A stretch of DNA of 40,000 nt from Bugula neritina (lineage: Eukaryota; Bryozoa; Gymnolaemata; Cheilostomatida; Bugulidae): NCBI GenBank assembly GCA_964035545.1, contig OZ037770.1, positions 10,724,963-10,764,962 of the forward strand, written 5' to 3'. Made by a program: the position numbers and the translations under genes. This document shows, piece after piece, positions 10,194 through 32,575 of this stretch (within the stretch, counting starts at the first letter, position 1; the number at the start of each line of letters is the position of its first letter). A model generated the notes under the pieces. That model was not told where the DNA came from and made no database searches. It was given only the letters and a program-made list of their open reading frames with translations.

Positions 10194-11938
10194 AACTAAA
10201 ATAGTAATAATTTTCTTTAGTAAAGGGCAAACACTCTTTTAGCTATAAAACACTGAAACAGAAACCAAGGGTGCATTTATTTACCATTTACATGTAGGAG
10301 TAGTATAGTGGAAACATTAAGATAGTTCTTTATCTTTTTTATAAATTTTGGTTTGTGTCACATATAACTTATTTTGCTATACATTTCTAATCTCTAACAC
10401 TGCATTTTCTTGATTTTTCCAGAACTGCACCTATTGAAGTTATTTTTTCAGTACTGCACAGGGCAGGACCATTCAGGCATTACAGTTAACCAATTGGATA
10501 TCTTTTTGCTGAGATGCTATACAAATTGAGAAAATCCTGCAATAAAGAAGAGTTTTGTTTTGATCAGCTAATGTGTGATCATATCAACAAGGAGCTTACA
10601 CAAAGCGTAATATTGCTTTAATTAGCTTTGCATGAATTACTATTATAAACACAGATGACCCACTTTAATTTGAGAGACACTCTATAATACACCCTTTGTG
10701 TATTTTGTACACTACAAAAAAGAATTCTGCATCTATATACTTGAATAATTCTTTGGTTAGTATTTTTACCAACTTAACTAAATCAACAATTTTTTTAAAA
10801 TCATTTTCAGTGTAGCCTACTTGTTGGGACTTTACATAAGCAGGAAAGCTTTGCCCTAATTAATGGATGATAGCTTTTTACATATAATCTCGGCTATGCC
10901 AGCTATATTATGATTTCTCCACATTTATTTGGGTTACTACACAAAAGCTAACCTTTTTGACTAATATAAAACGCCAGGATTTTTTACTTATCCGCACTTG
11001 TTTCTCACACTTGTAACTTTCAACGTATGATATAACCTTTTTCACATTGCTATTTTCTTTCAATAAAAAATTCTATACACTTAAAACACAACAGTATATA
11101 TATATATATATATATATATTTATTGTACTTTATTAAGTATAGAAAGACAACTCTAAATCACACAAATAATGTTATTTGACAAAATGGAAAATTTCTATAT
11201 ATAGCTCAAAATTATCTTTTAATACTTCCATTGTATCTAAGGCAATGAATATATTATTTGCTTCGTGCATATATATTATTGTATACATAATATAATACTT
11301 CCTCCGGCTATACTTGTTTAAATACACATGAAAAAGCAGCTAATTGCTCTCATTTGACGTAATGGACACAGACAACTCCAGGCAGCTTACTTTTTGACTC
11401 CATACTCTTTTCAAGTTCTTGGGTAATAAGATTAAAAATATAATTGATAATTAACATACTCATACCAAGTATATAATGTCTTGAGTAAATTTACTTAGTT
11501 GTCATGGTTTCAATCTGGGAAGATCTATACTTTGACATACGAGTTTCTGATTCATTATAGTTGTTTTGTACAGGAGATTAGCCAATGATATATTATATTC
11601 AACACATTATAAATGCCTGCATTGGTAAAATCTATAACACTGTGTTTAAGTTAACAAGGAACTATATTCTACTTAGGGTTAATTTTCTGTAACACTGATA
11701 TTAATACTGTTTTTTTAAGTTTTATTCTAAATTGCCTGTCAAACTGTTTGAATAAAAAGGAAACACTATGAAAAACAGCAATGCTGAACGTAAGTTAACT
11801 AAAAGCATTGTTTTGTTTAAGCAGTATATATAACCCAAAGTATAAGCACTGTTTTGAAAAATTATCTGCAGTGAAAATAAAATACCATGCAAACACATTG
11901 ACTAATTCATAAATCATATTTTAAAAATTACCTACATA
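10194..11938. other. Non-coding stretch with a short (TA)n
   Basis: AT-rich DNA without a supported exon. A short TA run lies at about 11095-11119. Confidence 0.5.
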
Positions 11939-11939
11939 T

Positions 11940-12660
11940 GCAGTGCAAACATACTTAGCTTCAAAGTTTTTACCATACAAAGCTTTGATTTTATTATATA
12001 ACAGTCTGATAAACAGCAAACTTACATATTGCTTAGAAGCCTGGGGAAGTGCCCCTAAAACCCATCTGAACAAGTTGCTTTTAATTCAAAAACGCATTAT
12101 TCGCATTATTTTCCACATATCACCTACTGAACACACGTCACCTCTATTTATCAAAGCAGAAATTCTTCCTATTGATCTCTTGTATATCTACCGCCTATGT
12201 CTTCTTGGTCATTCAGCTTATTATACTCCATCTCACACCAAACAACCACCAACTTACCTCACCAGACATTCTGAACTTTCCTTACCCTTACCTCTCTCTA
12301 CCACCGCAGCAGGTCATCGTCAAGTGTCCTACCAGATGTCTAGAAATTGGAATAAGCTACCTCTGACTTTAAGACATCATCAAAGCTTTGCCACATTTAA
12401 AATATTGTTGAAAAAGCACCTACTAAAATATTTAACTTAATCTGAATAAATAGTTCCCACTATTTTTTCAACTGCCACTTGGGCCCCGCTCCTTGAATAG
12501 CTATGCTACTGAGCACATGGGCCCCCATCTTGACTTCGATTGATATTATATATAAATTGAATTTAGCTCTTTTTGTGATACTGTTGTATATTTGTATTTT
12601 TTTGTCCTTTTGTTTTTTTTTGATGGAAATAAAGAAAACAAACAAACAAACAAACAAACA
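11940..12660 (+). mobile_element. 5'-truncated non-LTR retrotransposon, C-terminal ORF2 plus tail
   Basis: The open frame 11943-12440 (about 165 residues) matches the region C-terminal to the fingers and palm of a Jockey/CR1-type reverse transcriptase: LLYNSLINSKLTYCLEAWG, then LLLIQKRIIRII, HTSPLF, ILPIDLLYIY, and near the end STTAAGHRQVSYQ...WNKLP. The frame opens with GTG and no ATG, as expected of a 5' truncation. A non-coding 3' end follows with AATAAA at 12629 and a (CAAA)n tail to about 12660. It lies on the opposite strand from the gene that ends at 12724 and sits just past its 3' end. The catalytic RT and endonuclease parts are absent, so it cannot move by itself. Confidence 0.85.
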
Positions 12661-12723: not shown

Positions 12724-14967
12724 TTAGAAAAGTTTATTGAATGAACAATTGTAATGCTTTGATCTGGAATCAACATTAGCTCTGAAAGATCTTTCAATAA
12801 ACTTATACTCATTTTTTCCAAACACATCAACCATGTACTCAGGAACACAAGCTATTTCCATAAGACTTGTCTTCTCTTCATCTCCTCTGTTGACATGGCA
12901 ACAGGCCCACAAGTAAGATGTTTTAGGCAAAGGTTTTATATATCCACGGAGGCCATCTATGCAACTTCTTTTAATTCCGAAGGAAACTTCAAGGTTGGAG
13001 TATTTCTCGAAATGAAAAGCAACTGGATCAACCTGAGGTTGTAAAGTGAAAAGAGCTTTACCATTTGGCTCTAATGCTTCCAACTGTTGTCTGTGTAACA
13101 CCGTTATGCACACTTGTTGTTCCGCTGTTTGGGGGTTTGAAAGTTTCACTGCTGCCTTCATCCAAGCTGCTGCTGACTCAACTGGAAAGTACATACTCTT
13201 TTGCAACTCTATATTCTTTTCAATGATATAATCATCTCTCAAAGAGTTAGCAAATGCCAGTAGTCTGTGGGTCTCTGTTTCCATTAACTCATTGCTACAT
13301 TCTGTTTGACACAAGCTGATTGGGTCTTTGGTCAACAGATAACTGTCCATTATTATTGCAGACAGCTGAAAATAGTTGCAGCTTTTCTGCTTTTTTTTAG
13401 GTTTCTCCTTTTTTCCAACCAGACTGGTTCTTTGTAGAGAAACATGAGATATGTTTTCTAATCTAGCTTTCCAGTGTATGTTGAAAAATCTCAAACAGAA
13501 TTCTGCACAACTCTTCAAAAGATTTGTCACTTCCTTTATGAAACTCATCGACTCTTCACAAGTAGCAAAGTCTTTGAGTGACAGGATTTCTTGTATGAGC
13601 AACAAATAAAAGTGAGTAGCAATATTAAAAAGAACCATGCCCTTTTCTGGAAAATTCTTGTTTTCTATTATTTCTATCAATTCATGTCTTCTTGACAGCT
13701 CTTCTCTCTTTAACATATTTATAAAGTATTCAACAGAATGATGGCGCATTAGTCTTTGTTCTAAATAAGTCTCCTTCACAAAATTCACAAAACATTTAAG
13801 ATTCTCCAACAGACCAACAACCACCGGTTTTGGTTTCTCTGGAATATAATTTCCTATTAAAAATTCTGTTAAATGAAAAAGATAATCAGATTTGTGCCGT
13901 ATTTTGAAGATGTCATGAAAAGAGAAAAGACCAGCGGGTAGACTCTCATTTGCTGCTGCAATGAGACTTTTTACTAAGCCATGTGCTGTGTGGCTAGGAC
14001 CATAGGTTTCATTTGAGTAAACATGAAAGAAAAGCCTCTTGTCTTTATAAGCGGTTGGAGGGTTTACATCCATTAGCTCTGAACTTTCTGGAGATATTAG
14101 GCTACTAACTGTACTAATAGACTTGAAAGATTCTTCAGAGGAAGTTTTATTACAGCAGCCAGAAAGACTTGCAGCTACTGCTGCAGAAATTGAGCTAGTT
14201 TCCATGTCAGCTATACTTTGAAAGTCCATCCCTGGTTGATTAATTATAACCGGCTCATCTTCAATAAAGACGCCTGGTATGGTAGAAGCAAGACCCAAAC
14301 GTTTGACTGCCACCTTTGCAATCTAAAAACAAAACCAAAAACGTACAGCTGAAAAATAATTAAACAAACAAAAATTAATAAAAGAGTGTACTTTAAAGGC
14401 ACAAACACTGCCTATTTTTTTCCCCGTTAAAGTTGAAGCATACATTCTGTGTTTTTATATATATAGAGCATTATCATGCAAACAAACAATATTTTATAGG
14501 AGCAACACTTTTGTGAAAAAAATATAATATAAAGTGAATAGATGCATGCATGAAATATTTTAATGAGTCCTGACAAAACATCTATTATATGTACACATAA
14601 ATTTGTTGGTCCTCAGCAATTGAATTTTTTAAGAAACAATTATAATAACATGTGGAATGGCTTATTGGAACAAATTTATTCAAAATTTTGTTTAAAATTC
14701 AGCAACAATCTTTGCCTTAGATTAAATTGCAAAGCAAAAAATAATTCCTAAGTATTCAACTTTATAATATATATAACTTACAGTCTTTCTTTTAAGCCTA
14801 TCTTTCCTTTTTAGTGCTTTTTTCTCAGCCTTTAGTACGAGGTTGGGTATCATGGGCACGTCACTAGCAGAAGTAGATGGCAGTTGTAAAGATGGTTCAC
14901 TTGTTTTGGGTCTAGTTCCAGTTGCACCTGGTGATTTTGAACTCTTCTTCGACTTTTTGGGTGCCAT
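12724..14967 (-). CDS. Uncharacterised two-exon protein, tandem paralogue A
   Basis: Exon 1, 14967-14782, from ATG to an ACT/GTAAGT donor, gives 62 residues rich in Lys, Ser and Pro (SPGATG motif, basic end). Exon 2, 14322-12724, after a TTTTTAG acceptor, continues in phase 0 with IAKVAVKR and runs to the stop, for about 594 residues in total. The ATG was chosen because a TATA box lies 57 bases upstream and the same layout recurs in paralogue B. There is no signal peptide or membrane span. After an acidic, Ser-rich segment the protein looks helical; conserved blocks shared with B include KDKR.FFHV near residue 140, SLCQTECSNELM near 396 and ESAAAWMKAAVKLSN near 446. I do not recognise a domain and assign no function. 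An AATAAA overlaps the last codons. It is about 50-60% identical to B by eye, higher in the second half. Confidence 0.75.
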
Positions 14968-17081: not shown

Positions 17082-19392
17082 TTACCTGAGTGACTTTTCA
17101 ATAAACCTAGGCTTGTCCTGACGCAAATAATGCATTATAATCTCAGGAATACAGGCTACTTCGATAAGACTAGCCTTTTTACCATCTTCTCTGTTAGCCA
17201 GGCAAGATGCACACAAGTAGGATTCTTTAGGCGCAGGTTTTATATATACCTGAATACCATCCAATGGTCTGTCTACTTTAAATGAAACATCAGGGTCAGA
17301 GTACTTCTCAAAGTGGAAAGCAACTGGATCAGTTTGAGGCTGTAAAGTAAAAACCCCTTCACCATCTTTCTCTAAGGCTTTTAAATGGTTTCTGTGCAAA
17401 ACCGTTAAGCACACCTTTTGTTCTGTTGTTGAGAGATTTGAAAGTTTCACTGCTGCCTTCATCCAAGCTGCTGCTGACTCAACTGGAAAGTACATATTCT
17501 TGTGTAAGTCTACATATTTCTTAATGATATAATCATCTCTCAAGGAGTTAGCAAATGCCAGTAGTCTGTGAATTTCGGCTTCCATTAACTCATTGCTACA
17601 TTCTGTTTGGCACAAGCTGATTGGGTCTTTGGTCAACCGATAGCTGTCCACCATTATTGCTGCCAGCTCATATTGTTGGGGTGTTTCCTGCTTACTTTTA
17701 GATTTTTTCTTTACCTCAACCGCATTTGCTTTTCTTACAGAAACGTAGGAGATTGCTTCCAGTCTAGCTTTCCAGTGTGTGTTGAATGATTTCAAAACAA
17801 ATTCAGCACAGCACCTTAAAAGATTAGCCACTTTATTTAATAAACTCTTTGATTCCTTGCAATCAGGCAAATCTTTGAGTAAAAGCAATTCTTGTACAAG
17901 TAGCAAGTAAAAGTGAGTAGCAGTGATAAGAAGTAGCATGCCATTTTTAGGTAGAGAATTGTTTTGTATTATTTCCATCAATTCAACTCTTCTTGTTGCT
18001 TCTTCTTTTTTCAGCAAATCTATAAACTCATCAACTGAGCATTCACCTGTCAGCTTTCGTTTCAAATAGGTATCTTTAACATATTTTACAAAATGCTTAA
18101 GACTTGTTAGCAGATCAACAACTACTGCTTCAGGCTTCTCCTGAATGTAGTCTAAAACTAAAAGCTCTGTAACATAACTTAAATAGTCCGATTCAGGTTC
18201 ACTTTTAAAGATATCATCAAAGGTTGACAGACCAGCAGGTTGATTTTGATTTACTGCAGCAATGAGGCTATGTATTAAGTCCTGAGCAGTGTAGCTAGGA
18301 CCGTAAGTCTTTCTAGAACAAACATGAAAGAAAAATCTCTTGTCTTTATAGACATCTGGAGGATTTACATTGTCACTTACATCCATAAGCTCTGAACTTT
18401 TCGAACTCATCAAACTACCAGCAGTACCTATAGTTGAAAAGGTTCCCTTGGAGGTTGTTGCACCACTGCTGCCTGAATCACTTCCAGTAGCTGACTTAGG
18501 ATTAGTCATAGCAGCAGAGACTAATTCGGTTGTTTTGTCAGCCCTGCTTTTACGCTCCATCTCAACTTCATCAAATGCTGGCTCATCTTCAGAGATACCT
18601 GGTATAGTAGGAGCAAGACTAACACTTTTTTTCTTCATTTCCACAATCTAAAAATACAAAAACCTAAAAGTCAACTGGTGGTATTTACACAAATATAGGA
18701 AACAAATTGGTGAAATTTGCAATTTATATAACAAGTACATTGTTTATATATTTGGCCTGTTCTATTTAAATCGTTATTTACATTTACTCTTTACATAATT
18801 GCATGAATCAGAATTCTATGCAGAGTAAAATATGTTCTATAGCTCCCTACGTAAAAGAAAAATAATATAAGCTAGAGTTTTCTGCGCTCTGTATAGCAAG
18901 TTGCTGATCCCATATGAGAAACCTTTCAACCAATAAATTGCATCATTTAAAGCAATTTTTTGTTAATAATCGTAAAGCTCTTATCTATTTTAATGCTCAA
19001 AAAATGTTAAGTAAGGATTATAATAGCAGGCATATATTATAAAAATTATTGAATACTATTCTTATAGACTATAGCTTTAGATTTTAATATCGCTACAAGG
19101 CTTTTAATTGATAAACTTTTATATATGGACTTACAGATGCTAAAGCCGCTTTACTTTTATCTTCCTCTTCTTTCAAGATGGCTTCTCTTTTATCTTTCTC
19201 TTCTTTCATGATGGCTTCTCTTGTATCTTTCTCTTCTTTCATGAAGGCTTTTTTCTTAACTTCTGGTGTAGCCTCTGCAGACAAGTCACTAGTAGAAGTA
19301 GATGAAGATTGAGAAGGGAGTTCCCTTTTCATCAGTCTAGATCCGGTAGCACCTGGTGACTTTGGAGGATCTGTTGATTCTTTGGCTTCCAT
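17082..19392 (-). CDS. Uncharacterised two-exon protein, tandem paralogue B
   Basis: Exon 1, 19392-19135, ATG to a TCT/GTAAGT donor, gives 86 residues. It shares SPGATG and STSTSD with paralogue A, then has three copies of an 11-residue charged repeat (KEEKDTREAIM, KEEKDKREAIL, KEEEDKSKAAL), likely a helix or short coiled coil. Exon 2, 18647-17082, after a TCTAG-type acceptor, continues in phase 0 (IVEMKKK...), for about 607 residues in total. The open frame extends upstream of 19392 without ATG, so the first ATG is taken as start; a TATA-like element lies 59 bases upstream. It ends at SLR, about 18 residues earlier than A. The last codons read CTCAGG followed by TAA, which also resembles a CAG/GTAAAA donor, so a further exon is possible. 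No known domain; function unknown. Confidence 0.75.
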
Positions 19393-20908: not shown

Positions 20909-21790
20909 GTTTGTTTGTTTTACTTTGTCGTAGTTGGAGAAAAAATTTTAATTGAGAAAAAATAAACAAAATGACAGGGCCTATGGCGCAATAGCACTGT
21001 AGCTATAGTCGAGGCACCGAGCCATGAATGGTTGACAGTTGTATAAGATTTTTGTTTACGTTTTTGGAAGTTTTAGCAACTCAAAGAGTTTTATTTTTTT
21101 ATCTGGAAATTTGCCATTAGGTGGTCTCTCAGGGCAAGTTTGAAACCAGCCTCCCTTTCCACAGCACGAATAGAACTAGGCAATTTATTCCATAGCGACG
21201 AACATTGGAATTCCACTCTTCGTTGACCTGCAGCAGTTGATGATGGAGGAGTTTGTAGGCTGAACTCTGAAAATCTTGTGGGATAGTTATGTGTGAGATG
21301 TGTTAGTTGAGAATAGTAAAGTTTATGTGAGAGCAGTATTAGTTTGAATTTGTGTAGAGTGTGAATATGGGCATGATTGAAGAACTAAGAAACAGTGGTT
21401 TAGATGGGGAAAGGTGATGCTTTTTATAGATAATTCTCAGTATTTTCTTTTGTAGTAAATGTAATGGTTCAAGATAAATGTTTGCTGCATTACCCCACGA
21501 TTCTAGGCAATATGTTAATTTAGAATTTACAAAAGAGTTATATATTTGTATTAGAATTTTTCTAGGTAGGTGATGGGAACATTTACTTATCAAGCCTACT
21601 AAGGGCCTTAGGTTTTGGCAAAGTTTGCTGCAATGTTGTTGCCAAGATAGATGTGAATCTATTATAATACCTAAGAAGGTAGTTGATTTTACCTCCACTA
21701 ATTTTTTGTTGAACATTTCTAAGGCAAAGCCATTTAAATCTTGTTTATTTTGCGCTGTTTTGATTATCATATAGTGCTTGTAAAATGTTT
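20909..21790 (-). mobile_element. Second 5'-truncated non-LTR retrotransposon fragment
   Basis: Minus-strand frame 21770-21339 encodes KSTTFLGIIIDSHLSWQQHC, IQIYNSFVNSKLTYCLESWG and LLQKKILRIIYKK, the same RT C-terminal family as the copy at 12 kb. Coding similarity continues in another frame down to about 21115 (SSTAAGQRRVEFQ...WNKLPSSIRA), so a frameshift lies near 21340. The 3' end on the minus strand closes with AAAACAAACAAAC at about 20909-20922, comparable to the CAAA tail of the 12-kb copy. It is truncated at its 5' end near 21790 and inactive. Confidence 0.8.
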
Positions 21791-30162: not shown

Positions 30163-30474
30163 CTGCAAAAAACCATGTAGGGAAAGCAATAAAATGTTTT
30201 CATCCTTAGTTTAATGACTTGCTGATACTTCTAGATAGCAGAAAAGCAAATTATAAGTTTTATAGGAAAACCAGAATATTTTCATGTGAGCTGTTGTAAC
30301 ATATTATTGTATATTTTGATTGTTCTGGTTAAACTTTTATAAAAATCTTTATGAGATTTTCAAAATATTTATCAACATATAAAATAGTTTACTAATAATT
30401 AAATAACTACAAATATGATTTTACTACTACATAATTATAGAAATATAAGTTTCTACTATTGCGAAGGTGCGGGC

Positions 30475-30547
30475 CATGGTACTCTGTTCTGTGCTGATGA
30501 GGGGACAAACCCCGAAACAGCTGCTGTCCACAGATTGAGGTATTATG
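30475..30547 (+). ncRNA. Type I hammerhead ribozyme, copy 1 (all core residues present)
   Basis: Core CUGAUGA at 30494-30500; stem II GGGG (30501-30504), loop ACAAA, CCCC (30510-30513); GAAA at 30514-30517. Short stem III is ACAG/CUGU with a CUG loop, and the GUC cleavage triplet ends at 30528, with cleavage predicted between 30528 and 30529. Stem I is CUGUG (30489-30493) with CACAG (30529-30533), then an internal loop UGUU/AUU, then CUC/GAG and an outer helix from 30475-30481 with 30541-30547, including G-U pairs and one bulged G. All invariant nucleotides (C3, U4, G5, A6, G8, A9, G12, A13, A14, A15.1, U16.1, C17) are present. The internal loop in stem I and the stem II loop are where natural hammerheads make tertiary contacts. 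Predicted active. Confidence 0.88.
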
Positions 30548-30746
30548 CTCTCACTTAATGCTCAGCAATGACATTCAGTGATTGAGCACTCTCACCATGG
30601 TCACAAACTCAAGCTGCTAGCATTTTGCAAGGCTCGTGACTCCTAGGTGACCCCTAGAGTCACTTGAGCTCTCTGGCTTGAGTTTACACACCTTTTAAAT
30701 ATGCTTTAGTAGAAACATAAGTTTCTACTATTGCGAAGGTGCGGGC

Positions 30747-30819
30747 CATGGTACTCTGTTCTGTGCTGATGAAGGGACAAACCCCGAAACAGCTGCTGTC
30801 CACAGATTGAGGTATTATG
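30747..30819 (+). ncRNA. Hammerhead ribozyme, copy 2 (stem II first pair disrupted)
   Basis: Offset exactly 272 from copy 1. The core CUGAUGA (30766-30772), GAAA and GUC (predicted cleavage 30800/30801) are kept, but position 10.1 (30773) is A instead of G. The closing pair of stem II therefore becomes an A-C mismatch, and activity is probably reduced. Confidence 0.82.
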
Positions 30820-31018
30820 CTCTCACTTAATGCTCAGCAATGACATTCAGTGATTGAGCTCTCTCACCATGGTCACAAACTCAAGCTGCTAGCATTTTGC
30901 AAGGCTCGTGACTCCTAGGTGACCCCTAGAGTCACTTGAGCTCTCTGGCTTGAGTTTACACACCTTTTGAATATGCTTTAGTAGAAACATAAGTTTCTAC
31001 TATTGCGAAGGTGTGGGC

Positions 31019-31081
31019 CATGGTACTCTGTTCTGTACTGATGAGGGGACAAACCCCGAAACAGCTGCTGTCCACAGATTG

Positions 31082-31085
<4 letters not shown>
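31019..31085 (+). ncRNA. Hammerhead ribozyme, copy 3 (stem I first pair disrupted)
   Basis: Offset 544 from copy 1, core at 31038-31044, predicted cleavage 31072/31073. Position 2.1 (31037) is A instead of G, so the pair next to the cleavage site becomes A-C. The 3' side of outer stem I runs into (TA)n from 31085. Activity is probably reduced. Confidence 0.8.

Positions 31086-31138
<53 letters not shown>
31085..31138. repeat. (TA)n microsatellite abutting the ribozyme array
   Basis: Begins immediately after CACAGATTGAGG of monomer 3. Confidence 0.97.
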
Positions 31139-31139
<1 letters not shown>

Positions 31140-31149
31140 TTATATAAAT

Positions 31150-31870
31150 ATATATGCATATATATATGATAAAATTGTAATTACACATAAGATGTATATG
31201 GAAAACAATTAAACTCACAGCTCCTGCTCGCCAAAAATCTGCTAGACATTTCTTTAATTCATTCAGTGGCCAAACGTCGTTGTAGGATTGTATCTAAAAA
31301 CCTTCTGATAGCTTCACCACAATTTCTTTATCTGAGCAAGAGTCCAGTGTTGATTAAGTTCTCAAGTCAGTTACAAAAAAATCAATTATTCAAGTTAAAC
31401 AAACTAAGAAAGCTCATTTGAAGCTAATGAGTTTCATAAAACTTTGTCCAACAGTAGTCACACTCTTGTTCTTTGATGAATTGAACTAAACATGTAATGA
31501 TAAAGGAAATTTGAAATAATAATTAATCCTGTTCTTTTAAATAAATCTATACGTGCAGAAAAATACATTACCTTACTATTGAAGTTTTTCAAACGGTTTC
31601 GTTTCATGAACTCTATGTAAAAACACATGTTTCATGTCAAAACCATCACGTTAAGCAGGAAATTAAGTAGAAATTAGGTACTTAAATCTAATAATATGCT
31701 ATGTATCATACAGCTTTCTGATGCATACATAGAACCTTCACAACATCTGTAGATAACATTTACAATATAAAATCCTATTTTACATTTTACATTATTGGTC
31801 AATAACTATATAAATATTATATGTTATATGTGAATTTGGCCTCTATCGGTTGCATCTGACCATAGAATGC
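31150..31870. other. Non-coding stretch, nothing identified
   Basis: Moderately AT-rich sequence between the ribozyme array and the retrotransposon fragment. No exon or repeat recognised. Confidence 0.5.
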
Positions 31871-32290: not shown

Positions 32291-32363
32291 ATATATGTCT
32301 CAATCTGTGGACAGCAGCTGTTTTGGGATTTGTCCCCTCATCAGCACAGAACAGAGTACCATG
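32291..32363 (-). ncRNA. Hammerhead ribozyme in the inverted monomer (G12 lost)
   Basis: On the minus strand CUGAUGA occupies 32344-32338, and stem II GGGG pairs with UCCC (one G-U pair). The next position, G12 (32324), is A, giving AAAA instead of GAAA. G12 is the general base in hammerhead catalysis, so this copy should be inactive. Stem I CUGUG/CACAG and the GUC triplet (predicted site 32310/32309) are intact. Confidence 0.82.
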
Positions 32364-32571
32364 GCCCACACCTTCGCAATAGTAAAACTGATAGTTTTAC
32401 TAAAGCATATTTAAAAGGTGTGTAAACTTAAGCCAGAGTGCTCAAGTGACTCTAGGGGTCACCTAGGAGTCACGAGCATTGCAAAATGCTAGCAGCTTGA
32501 GTTTGTGACCATGGTGAGAGTGCTCAATCATTTAATGTCATTGCTGAGCATTAAATGAGAGCGTAATATCT

Positions 32572-32575
<4 letters not shown>
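32297..32575 (-). repeat. Inverted single monomer of the ribozyme repeat
   Basis: A 279-base copy of the 272-base monomer in opposite orientation to the array 1.2 kb away and noticeably more diverged. On the minus strand it begins ATTGAGATATTACGC and ends CACAGATTGAGAC, so the ATTGAGA sequence is present at both ends: one full unit plus about 7 bases of terminal redundancy. Both ends are set directly in (TA)n. The palindrome is kept with altered arms (32390-32412: TAGTAAAACT/AGTTTTACTA). Confidence 0.88.

Follow-up and report, generated by a model that had tools for sequence, protein, structure and literature searches.

A Hammerhead-Bearing 272 bp Repeat Family in TA Microsatellites of the Bryozoan Bugula neritina: Probable Retrozyme Copies of Circular RNA

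Introduction

What kind of element is a 272 bp tandem repeat of a bryozoan genome with a hammerhead ribozyme motif in every unit, and how did it reach its place? The locus lies on chromosome 6 of Bugula neritina, in a window of 40,000 nucleotides near 10.725-10.765 Mb, which is the whole stretch of DNA analysed here. The original prediction, made from the letters, took it for a retrozyme-like, non-autonomous RNA element. Animal retrozymes have been described in coral, mussel, and axolotl (Cervera & de la Pena 2020, PMC7229834), and in the model published there, as far as the accessible part of the paper goes, RNA circles are mobilised and Penelope-like elements (PLEs) are strong candidates for the task. 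According to the accessible part of a review, the animal repeats show no conserved motif hinting at the partner (PMC7761336). Which RNA form and which enzyme move animal retrozymes is the question that this family bears on, and its ends, fixed by target and start site, make both testable from genome sequence.

Materials and Methods

The assembly searched comprised 215.8 Mb in 295 contigs; the genome note, in its accessible part, gives 216.00 Mb and 320 scaffolds (PMC11480708). Eighty loci with 94 element pieces in total were fetched. The first set contained every place listed by a BLAST-type search (40 loci, L009-L048), with a bias to long and well-kept copies; its 46 pieces were not chosen for their ends or flanks. 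The second set (40 loci, L049-L088; 48 pieces) was taken from exact core matches in list order, outside the first set. TA tracts were counted by one one-sided rule, the same for pieces and background. For the genome-wide counts at the return point we used patterns of 23, 23, 23, and 20 letters with 1 mismatch allowed in each, and unit position 20 was chosen as the control because it offers the same TAT followed by T as unit position 104.

Results and Discussion

The Array and Its Motifs

The tandem 272 bp repeat of the original prediction is real. Tandem Repeats Finder (TRF) gave a direct repeat of 2.4 copies at 30438-31087, which the repeat search resolved into two full units and a third of 106 nt (Table 1). 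The three core motifs announced at a spacing of 272 bases are all present, with CUGAUGA, GAAA, a four-pair stem III, and GUC. The stems had been claimed for all three sets, and here the claim stands for copy 1 (GGGG and CUGUG) and falls for the other two: copy 2 reads AGGG and copy 3 CUGUA, each giving an A.C pair, so that copy 1 alone has all 13 stem pairs. As read from the letters, the motif of copy 1 is intact and those of copies 2 and 3 are damaged. The anatomy of the locus fits a retrozyme source, but with one of three ribozyme motifs intact it is a weaker source than had been assumed. The 3' outer strand of stem I of copy 3 runs into the TA tract, and the element-specific sequence of the array ends at 31084 (unit position 103), positions 31085-31087 being common to element and tract. 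The hammerhead of the second family copy of the window (32305-32349) has A at G12 and, judging by this substitution, should be inactive.

Table 1: Coordinates of the features of the array and of its relative in the window.
Feature	Position	Strand	Remarks	Evidence
Putative retrozyme unit 1 (unit positions 1-272)	30438..30709	+	5'-truncated start of element; subfamily A	TRF, repeats, unit map
Putative retrozyme unit 2	30710..30981	+	4 differences from unit 1	Repeat search
Partial unit 3 (unit positions 1-106)	30982..31087	+		Repeat search, unit map
Type I hammerhead motif, copy 1	30475..30547	+	Inner motif 30489-30533; core and all 13 stem pairs; predicted outer stem I 30475-30483 / 30539-30547; predicted cleavage site 30528/30529
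Hammerhead motif, copy 2	30747..30819	+	Inner motif 30761-30805; first stem II pair A.C; predicted cleavage site 30800/30801
Hammerhead motif, copy 3	31019..31087	+	Inner motif 31033-31077; stem I pair beside cleavage site A.C; predicted cleavage site 31072/31073
Unit 103/104, candidate reverse-transcription start and return point	30540..30541	+		3' ends, genome-wide stops
(TA)n tract after element 3' end	31085..31167	.		TRF, family statistics
Second family copy	32299..32575	-	1.02 units (unit 97 round to 102); subfamily B; TA repeats flanking

The covariance-model hit, whose absence the original prediction had counted against itself, was indeed absent: no Rfam model matched at gathering score in the whole window, and no hammerhead appeared among the 16 weak matches obtained at E up to 10 in 30300-31200, which were rejected as composition, mostly AT-driven. 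The genome-wide search with RF00163, which scored 73 out of 15744 candidates, gave 0 matches, but it was equally silent in the 14 control genomes and so says little. Considering the silence of Rfam, the motif call depends on the letters themselves and on the evidence from the family. Folding of the 76-nt motifs did not return the hammerhead as the minimum free energy (MFE) structure, and their stability against shuffled sequences was ordinary (z -0.08, 0.60, and 0.54); in copy 1 the hammerhead fold lies 2.4 kcal/mol above its MFE. The whole unit as a circle is predicted to be strongly self-paired (z -6.4), 0 of 200 shuffles being as stable. Among the complete hammerheads of the first set, which holds the best BLAST matches and is biased to well-kept copies, 87/105 keep the core and all 13 pairs. 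Divergence over all fetched loci was 0.023 in the hammerhead against 0.037 in the rest of the unit. When the exact-core picks were left out and the first set was taken alone, the figures were 0.030 and 0.034, and the hammerhead ranked 132 of 272 circular windows. It is thus hardly better kept than its surroundings and gives no independent sign of selection, as expected if retrozyme copies decay neutrally.

No long open reading frame was found on the circle, the longest ATG frames having 20 aa (+) and 21 aa (-). Hammerhead SINEs of the schistosome type carry an internal Pol III promoter with box A and box B; in the window unit a box A-like site with 1 mismatch occurs at unit position 22, and box B is absent within 2 mismatches.

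A Dispersed Family with Two Main Groups

When at most 3 mismatches were allowed, the 35-base hammerhead core was matched 499 times genome-wide (247 + 252) and its reversed pattern 0 times, so the core is not a product of chance. The count of genomic copies by a BLAST-type search with the unit gave at least 135 matches, 40 of 667 candidates being scored. The exact 25-letter form of the core had 0 matches in virus contigs, a collection from which records near the window's genome were possibly left out. The 94 pieces measure between 0.1 and 5.06 units. At 13 diagnostic sites the units fall into two large groups, A and B, beside which we read at least one smaller subfamily, C, from the sequences; the window array belongs to A and the second window copy to B. 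This anatomy (dispersed, multicopy, non-coding, and tandem, with ends of the retrotransposition type) bears out the retrozyme-like, non-autonomous reading. At one locus (L015) two short copies point in opposite ways, and at another (L085) two copies in opposite orientation share the 5' start at unit position 151 and the same flanking sequence.

A Fixed 3' End in TA Microsatellites

The 3' ends of the copies are nearly uniform. In the first set 45/46 pieces end at unit positions 97-109, and 40/46 exactly at 106; in the second set 42/48 end in this zone and 35/48 exactly at 106. The zone sits just 3' of the predicted cleavage site (unit position 91). Because unit positions 104-106 read TAT and merge into the TA tract, the real boundary is 103/104, which lies 12 nt beyond the cleavage site, in what is predicted to be the 3' strand of outer stem I.

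TA tracts of 10 bp or more follow the 3' side in 45/46 pieces of the first set, precede the 5' side in 40/46, and are present on both sides in 39/46; for the second set the numbers are 41/48, 41/48, and 35/48. Background positions are followed by such a tract in 3-4% of cases (187/5762 in the outer flanks and 219/5406 in the window). Under a stricter rule both flanks are TA in 60/94 pieces, and 366 places of the genome (185 + 181) show the 3' side of the ribozyme passing straight into TA repeats within 2 mismatches. The family inserts by preference among TA tracts, mostly within (TA)n microsatellites. The window unit contains another TA-like stretch, ATATA at unit positions 6-10, at which the 3' end falls in 0/94 pieces; since this longer stretch goes unused, the start is not set by pairing length alone.

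Any target-site duplication would be hidden by the TA repeats on either side of most copies. A proof by empty sites, from insertions in opposite orientation beside one host repeat, was dropped, for that repeat occurs in inverted pairs and enters TA tracts. The repeat itself (L012:500-985) has at least 123 matches, 40 of 222 candidates being scored, and ends that are about 416 bp long; several of these ends stand in inverted pairs a few kb apart that enter TA tracts, and it looks like a DNA transposon also sitting in TA microsatellites.

Scattered 5' Ends and a Return Point

Unlike the fixed 3' ends, the 5' ends of the 94 pieces scatter over the unit. At the 5' junction, element and TA tract overlap by a mean of 1.75 nt against 0.35 expected, and 0 of 20000 simulations were as high; the test covered the 71 of 94 pieces with a TA tract on the left.

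These ends bear on a satellite explanation, by which tandem DNA spread through recombination or as DNA circles that reintegrated at TA tracts, with the hammerhead as a relic. The tandem units, the recombination-prone microsatellites at the flanks, and the probable local duplicates in the family (L011, L070) are what it would lead one to expect. DNA circles, however, would open anywhere, and the copies have fixed 3' ends, scattered 5' ends, and one polarity; moreover, the arrays are short (at most 5.06 units) and the core matches are spread over all of contigs C1-C9. We regard this explanation as most improbable.

The scatter of the 5' ends is not even. Starts at unit positions 96-108 number 16/71 against 7.0 expected from an overlap preference fitted on the other positions (P 0.0013). 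Counting all pieces, 21/94 begin there (10/54 of the A-like and 11/40 of the B/C-like), and the length of 20 of these 21 lies within 0.05 of whole units: 11 have about one unit, 6 about two, 2 about three, and 1 four, the exception being L045 with 1.85 units. Genome-wide, 54 copies have their start in TA at unit position 104, and in 129 the sequence continues from the preceding unit; the corresponding numbers at the matched control position 20 are 9 and 412 (odds ratio 19, P 4e-22). Some of the 54 are near neighbours and could be local duplicates.

This excess is unequal between subfamilies. Counted by eye on exact rows, with the read-throughs among 100 of the 129 matches listed, copies with C at unit position 109 (B/C type) gave 29 stops against 47 read-throughs (P 7e-19 over the control), and copies with T there (A type) gave 5 against 52 (P 0.017 over the control); the two differ with P 0.0001. 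Among the fetched loci, A-like copies have their near-whole-turn starts at various positions within 97-107, and a pattern that requires 104 therefore overlooks some of these starts.

Could a linear RNA have produced such ends? The copies would then descend from a SINE-like element whose uncut transcript starts at unit position 104 beside the upstream TA tract and ends in a (UA)n tail pairing with genomic TA repeats; the RNA would be copied to its 5' end, arrays would be inherited from multi-unit source loci, and the hammerhead would be idle in transposition. Such an element explains, free of circles, both why the 3' end is fixed and bounded by TA and why so many copies start at 104, and the larger excess in B/C-type copies looks as if some lineages were favoured. 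In the Anolis Penelope element, as the accessible part of the report has it, hammerhead cleavage was dispensable for insertion in vitro (PMC11167929). The same explanation meets pieces of 0.1 to 5.06 units with near-whole-turn classes from 1 to 4, which speak against it, as does the comparison of units given below.

Cleavage by the hammerhead would leave unit position 92 as the 5' end. A pattern of ten A/T letters directly followed by this position had one exact match genome-wide (no mismatch allowed), so the copies do not usually arise by run-off on cleaved linear monomers. L009 jumps internally from about unit position 115 to 92, with CAC shared by the two sides; this may be a template switch at the ribozyme-made 5' end. 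Short duplications or jumps of the 5' end around unit positions 92-115 were noted in L009, L010, and L040, as if reverse transcription had stuttered on return to its start.

One Template per Array

Taking into account that the linear element would inherit its arrays, unit i of one copy should resemble unit i of another. Adjacent units of one element have the derived state in common at 75/326 derived sites (23%), and random units of different elements at 58/3081 (1.9%). When the comparison is confined to the last two units and to unit positions 1-106, a pair of units from one element has on average 0.543 derived variants in common (35 pairs); for different elements the value is 0.027 when both units are terminal (301 pairs), 0.030 when both are penultimate (301), and 0.025 when one is of each kind (602). 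Sharing within an element is therefore about 20 times that between different arrays, against what the linear element predicts, and same-index pairs are no closer than different-index ones (0.027 against 0.025 per pair), so that sharing goes with the element and not with the place in the array. A linear transcript from 104 thus explains the start and the return stops and not the arrays of one repeated unit, and we consider it quite unlikely. Mean divergence was 0.0177 within elements (43 elements) and 0.0232 between elements of one group (1164 pairs). One locus, L022, is chimeric, with a 5' part of subfamily B, a 3' part of subfamily A, and the switch near the candidate start site; a template switch between two RNAs is a possible origin.

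Copying of a Closed Circle

Taken together, the sharing of a single template and the stops at whole turns point to circles. A circle accounts for three facts, namely, the start beyond the cleavage site, the stops on return, and the arrays of one repeated unit. An uncut multimer also spans the cleavage site, but the units of one array should then differ as the units of its source do. The array is probably a 5'-truncated copy of a non-autonomous, non-LTR retrozyme family, made by reverse transcription round an RNA circle at a TA tract.

The steps may have been the following. A host polymerase would read through tandem copies, and the hammerheads would cut the transcript into 272-nt monomers to be ligated into circles, as the motif and the published animal retrozymes suggest; we infer that ligation takes place at the cleavage site. 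A reverse transcriptase supplied in trans would open a (TA)n microsatellite, with priming there. Synthesis of cDNA on the circle would begin at a place given by the copies themselves, unit position 103, which lies 12 nt beyond the closed cleavage site, and would run 3' to 5' round the circle. A stop part-way would leave a 5' truncation; synthesis that ended close to whole turns, or went on for as many as about five, would yield a tandem array directly. The 5' end would finally be joined to the TA tract through short overlaps such as those observed. What we infer, then, is that copies arise by target-primed reverse transcription (TPRT) of a closed RNA circle at TA microsatellites. The fuller statement, in which the copies record rolling-circle TPRT on a ligated hammerhead circRNA with a start at 103, near-whole-turn stops, arrays made in one event, and a (TA)n-seeking reverse transcriptase other than a canonical Penelope element, is offered tentatively. 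Against the account as a whole stand the silence of Rfam, the partner searches described below, which yielded no enzyme, the uneven excess at the return point, which lowered our confidence slightly, the mixture in L022, and the left side of the window's own array (30438-31087), which has no TA tract.

The Partner Enzyme

The TA target and the defined start site are a handle for finding the enzyme. Mobilisation by a canonical PLE with a GIY-YIG endonuclease would be compatible with the copying of circles. Internal starting on the RNA and AT-rich cutting, as the accessible part of the PLE study reports them (PMC11167929), resemble the fixed internal start and the TA target found here, and PLEs co-occur with retrozymes in the animals analysed, according to the accessible part of that survey (PMC7229834). 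Against it, a whole-genome search for the GIY-YIG profile (PF01541) gave 4 candidates and 1 match; a divergent endonuclease would be missed by such a search. The sole match reads as a host nuclease, presumably SLX1. A canonical PLE is, in our estimate, a possible but rather doubtful partner.

A search with the RVT_1 profile, in which the best 150 of 2124 candidates were scored and four families looked at, gave no partner ending in TA. The four abundant families (open reading frames of 961, 928, 936, and 1105 aa; two copies each, 8 loci) are LINEs by our reading. Their 3' parts carry AAAC repeats in one family and GTAA-type repeats in another, and the other two are without a clear simple tail; as none ends in TA like the retrozyme, all four were rejected.

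In the window there are also two open frames of 532 and 521 aa (12724-14322 and 17082-18647, both on the - strand) without a Pfam match; they look paralogous by eye, and upstream of each, in the same orientation, lies a shorter frame rich in lysine. Two fragments, 11925-12440 (+) and 21091-21788 (-), read like the C-terminal part of LINE proteins, and the two frames tested there had no Pfam match.

Comparison with Known Systems

By its sequence the element is an animal non-LTR retrozyme, a known kind, now in Bryozoa. It has tandem units within the range of about 150-450 bp in many copies (272 bp, up to 5.06 units, 499 cores), a canonical type I hammerhead as predicted for copy 1 and for 87 of the 105 units, and no protein-coding region. 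The accessible part of the survey describes animal retrozymes likewise as type I hammerheads in non-coding tandem units of about 170-400 bp, from dimers to multimers, dispersed and without LTR, with a strongly self-paired circle (PMC7229834). Their GC is given there as <50% in the text and <45% in a figure legend (PMC7229834); the four pieces of the window have 0.456, 0.460, 0.462, and 0.426, that is, all below 50% and one of four below 45%. Target-site duplications in animal retrozymes, when present, exceed 4 bp, according to the same accessible part (PMC7229834). The Bugula family differs from those described there in belonging to an unrelated phylum and in lying mostly in (TA)n microsatellites (PMC7229834), and also in that its 3' terminus is fixed at 12 nt beyond the cleavage site and that no PLE endonuclease was recognised in the genome. 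A literature search covering few subscription journals found no report of a bryozoan hammerhead or retrozyme and, among the matches listed, none of TA-targeted retrozymes; priority is not proven. With this family the phylum Bryozoa is added, and for its host species a chromosome-level genome and a transcriptome have been published.

The carnation agent CarSV reportedly has a circular form with hammerheads. Its multimeric DNA copies in microsatellite-like genome sequence of some cultivars, described in the accessible part of the report (PMC9695139), are the nearest precedent that we found for the TA or microsatellite target (PMC9695139). CarSV, however, belongs to plants, and its DNA is linked to the episome of a pararetrovirus, whereas the Bugula element is a dispersed animal family of hundreds of copies with a fixed 3' end and TA tracts on either side. 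The schistosome Sm-alpha is said to be a hammerhead SINE with a short repeated unit. This SINE and the newt satellite resemble the Bugula element in carrying a hammerhead in a short repeated unit; it differs in that no box B was found in the window unit and in its short dispersed arrays, which form no long satellite.

MuTAnT of Medicago likewise inserts into TA microsatellites, and by the accessible part of its description is a Mutator-like DNA transposon (PMC4486113), whereas the Bugula element, with one fixed and one variable end, looks like a retroelement. PLE hammerheads are described as minimal variants in the accessible parts of two papers (PMC7229834, PMC7761336), and a PLE would have an open reading frame with reverse transcriptase and GIY-YIG between its hammerhead repeats, while the Bugula units abut directly. 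By comparison with Poseidon of Anolis, in the accessible part of its description (PMC11167929), the Bugula family has in common the hammerhead, the tandem or partial-tandem copies, the internal initiation of reverse transcription, and the AT-rich targets. It differs in the unit, which has no open reading frame and a stem III of four pairs against the minimal PLE variants, and in the place where reverse transcription would start, 12 nt past the cleavage site in Bugula and 111-118 into an ORF in Poseidon, with the cleavage site at position 26 of that ORF (PMC11167929).
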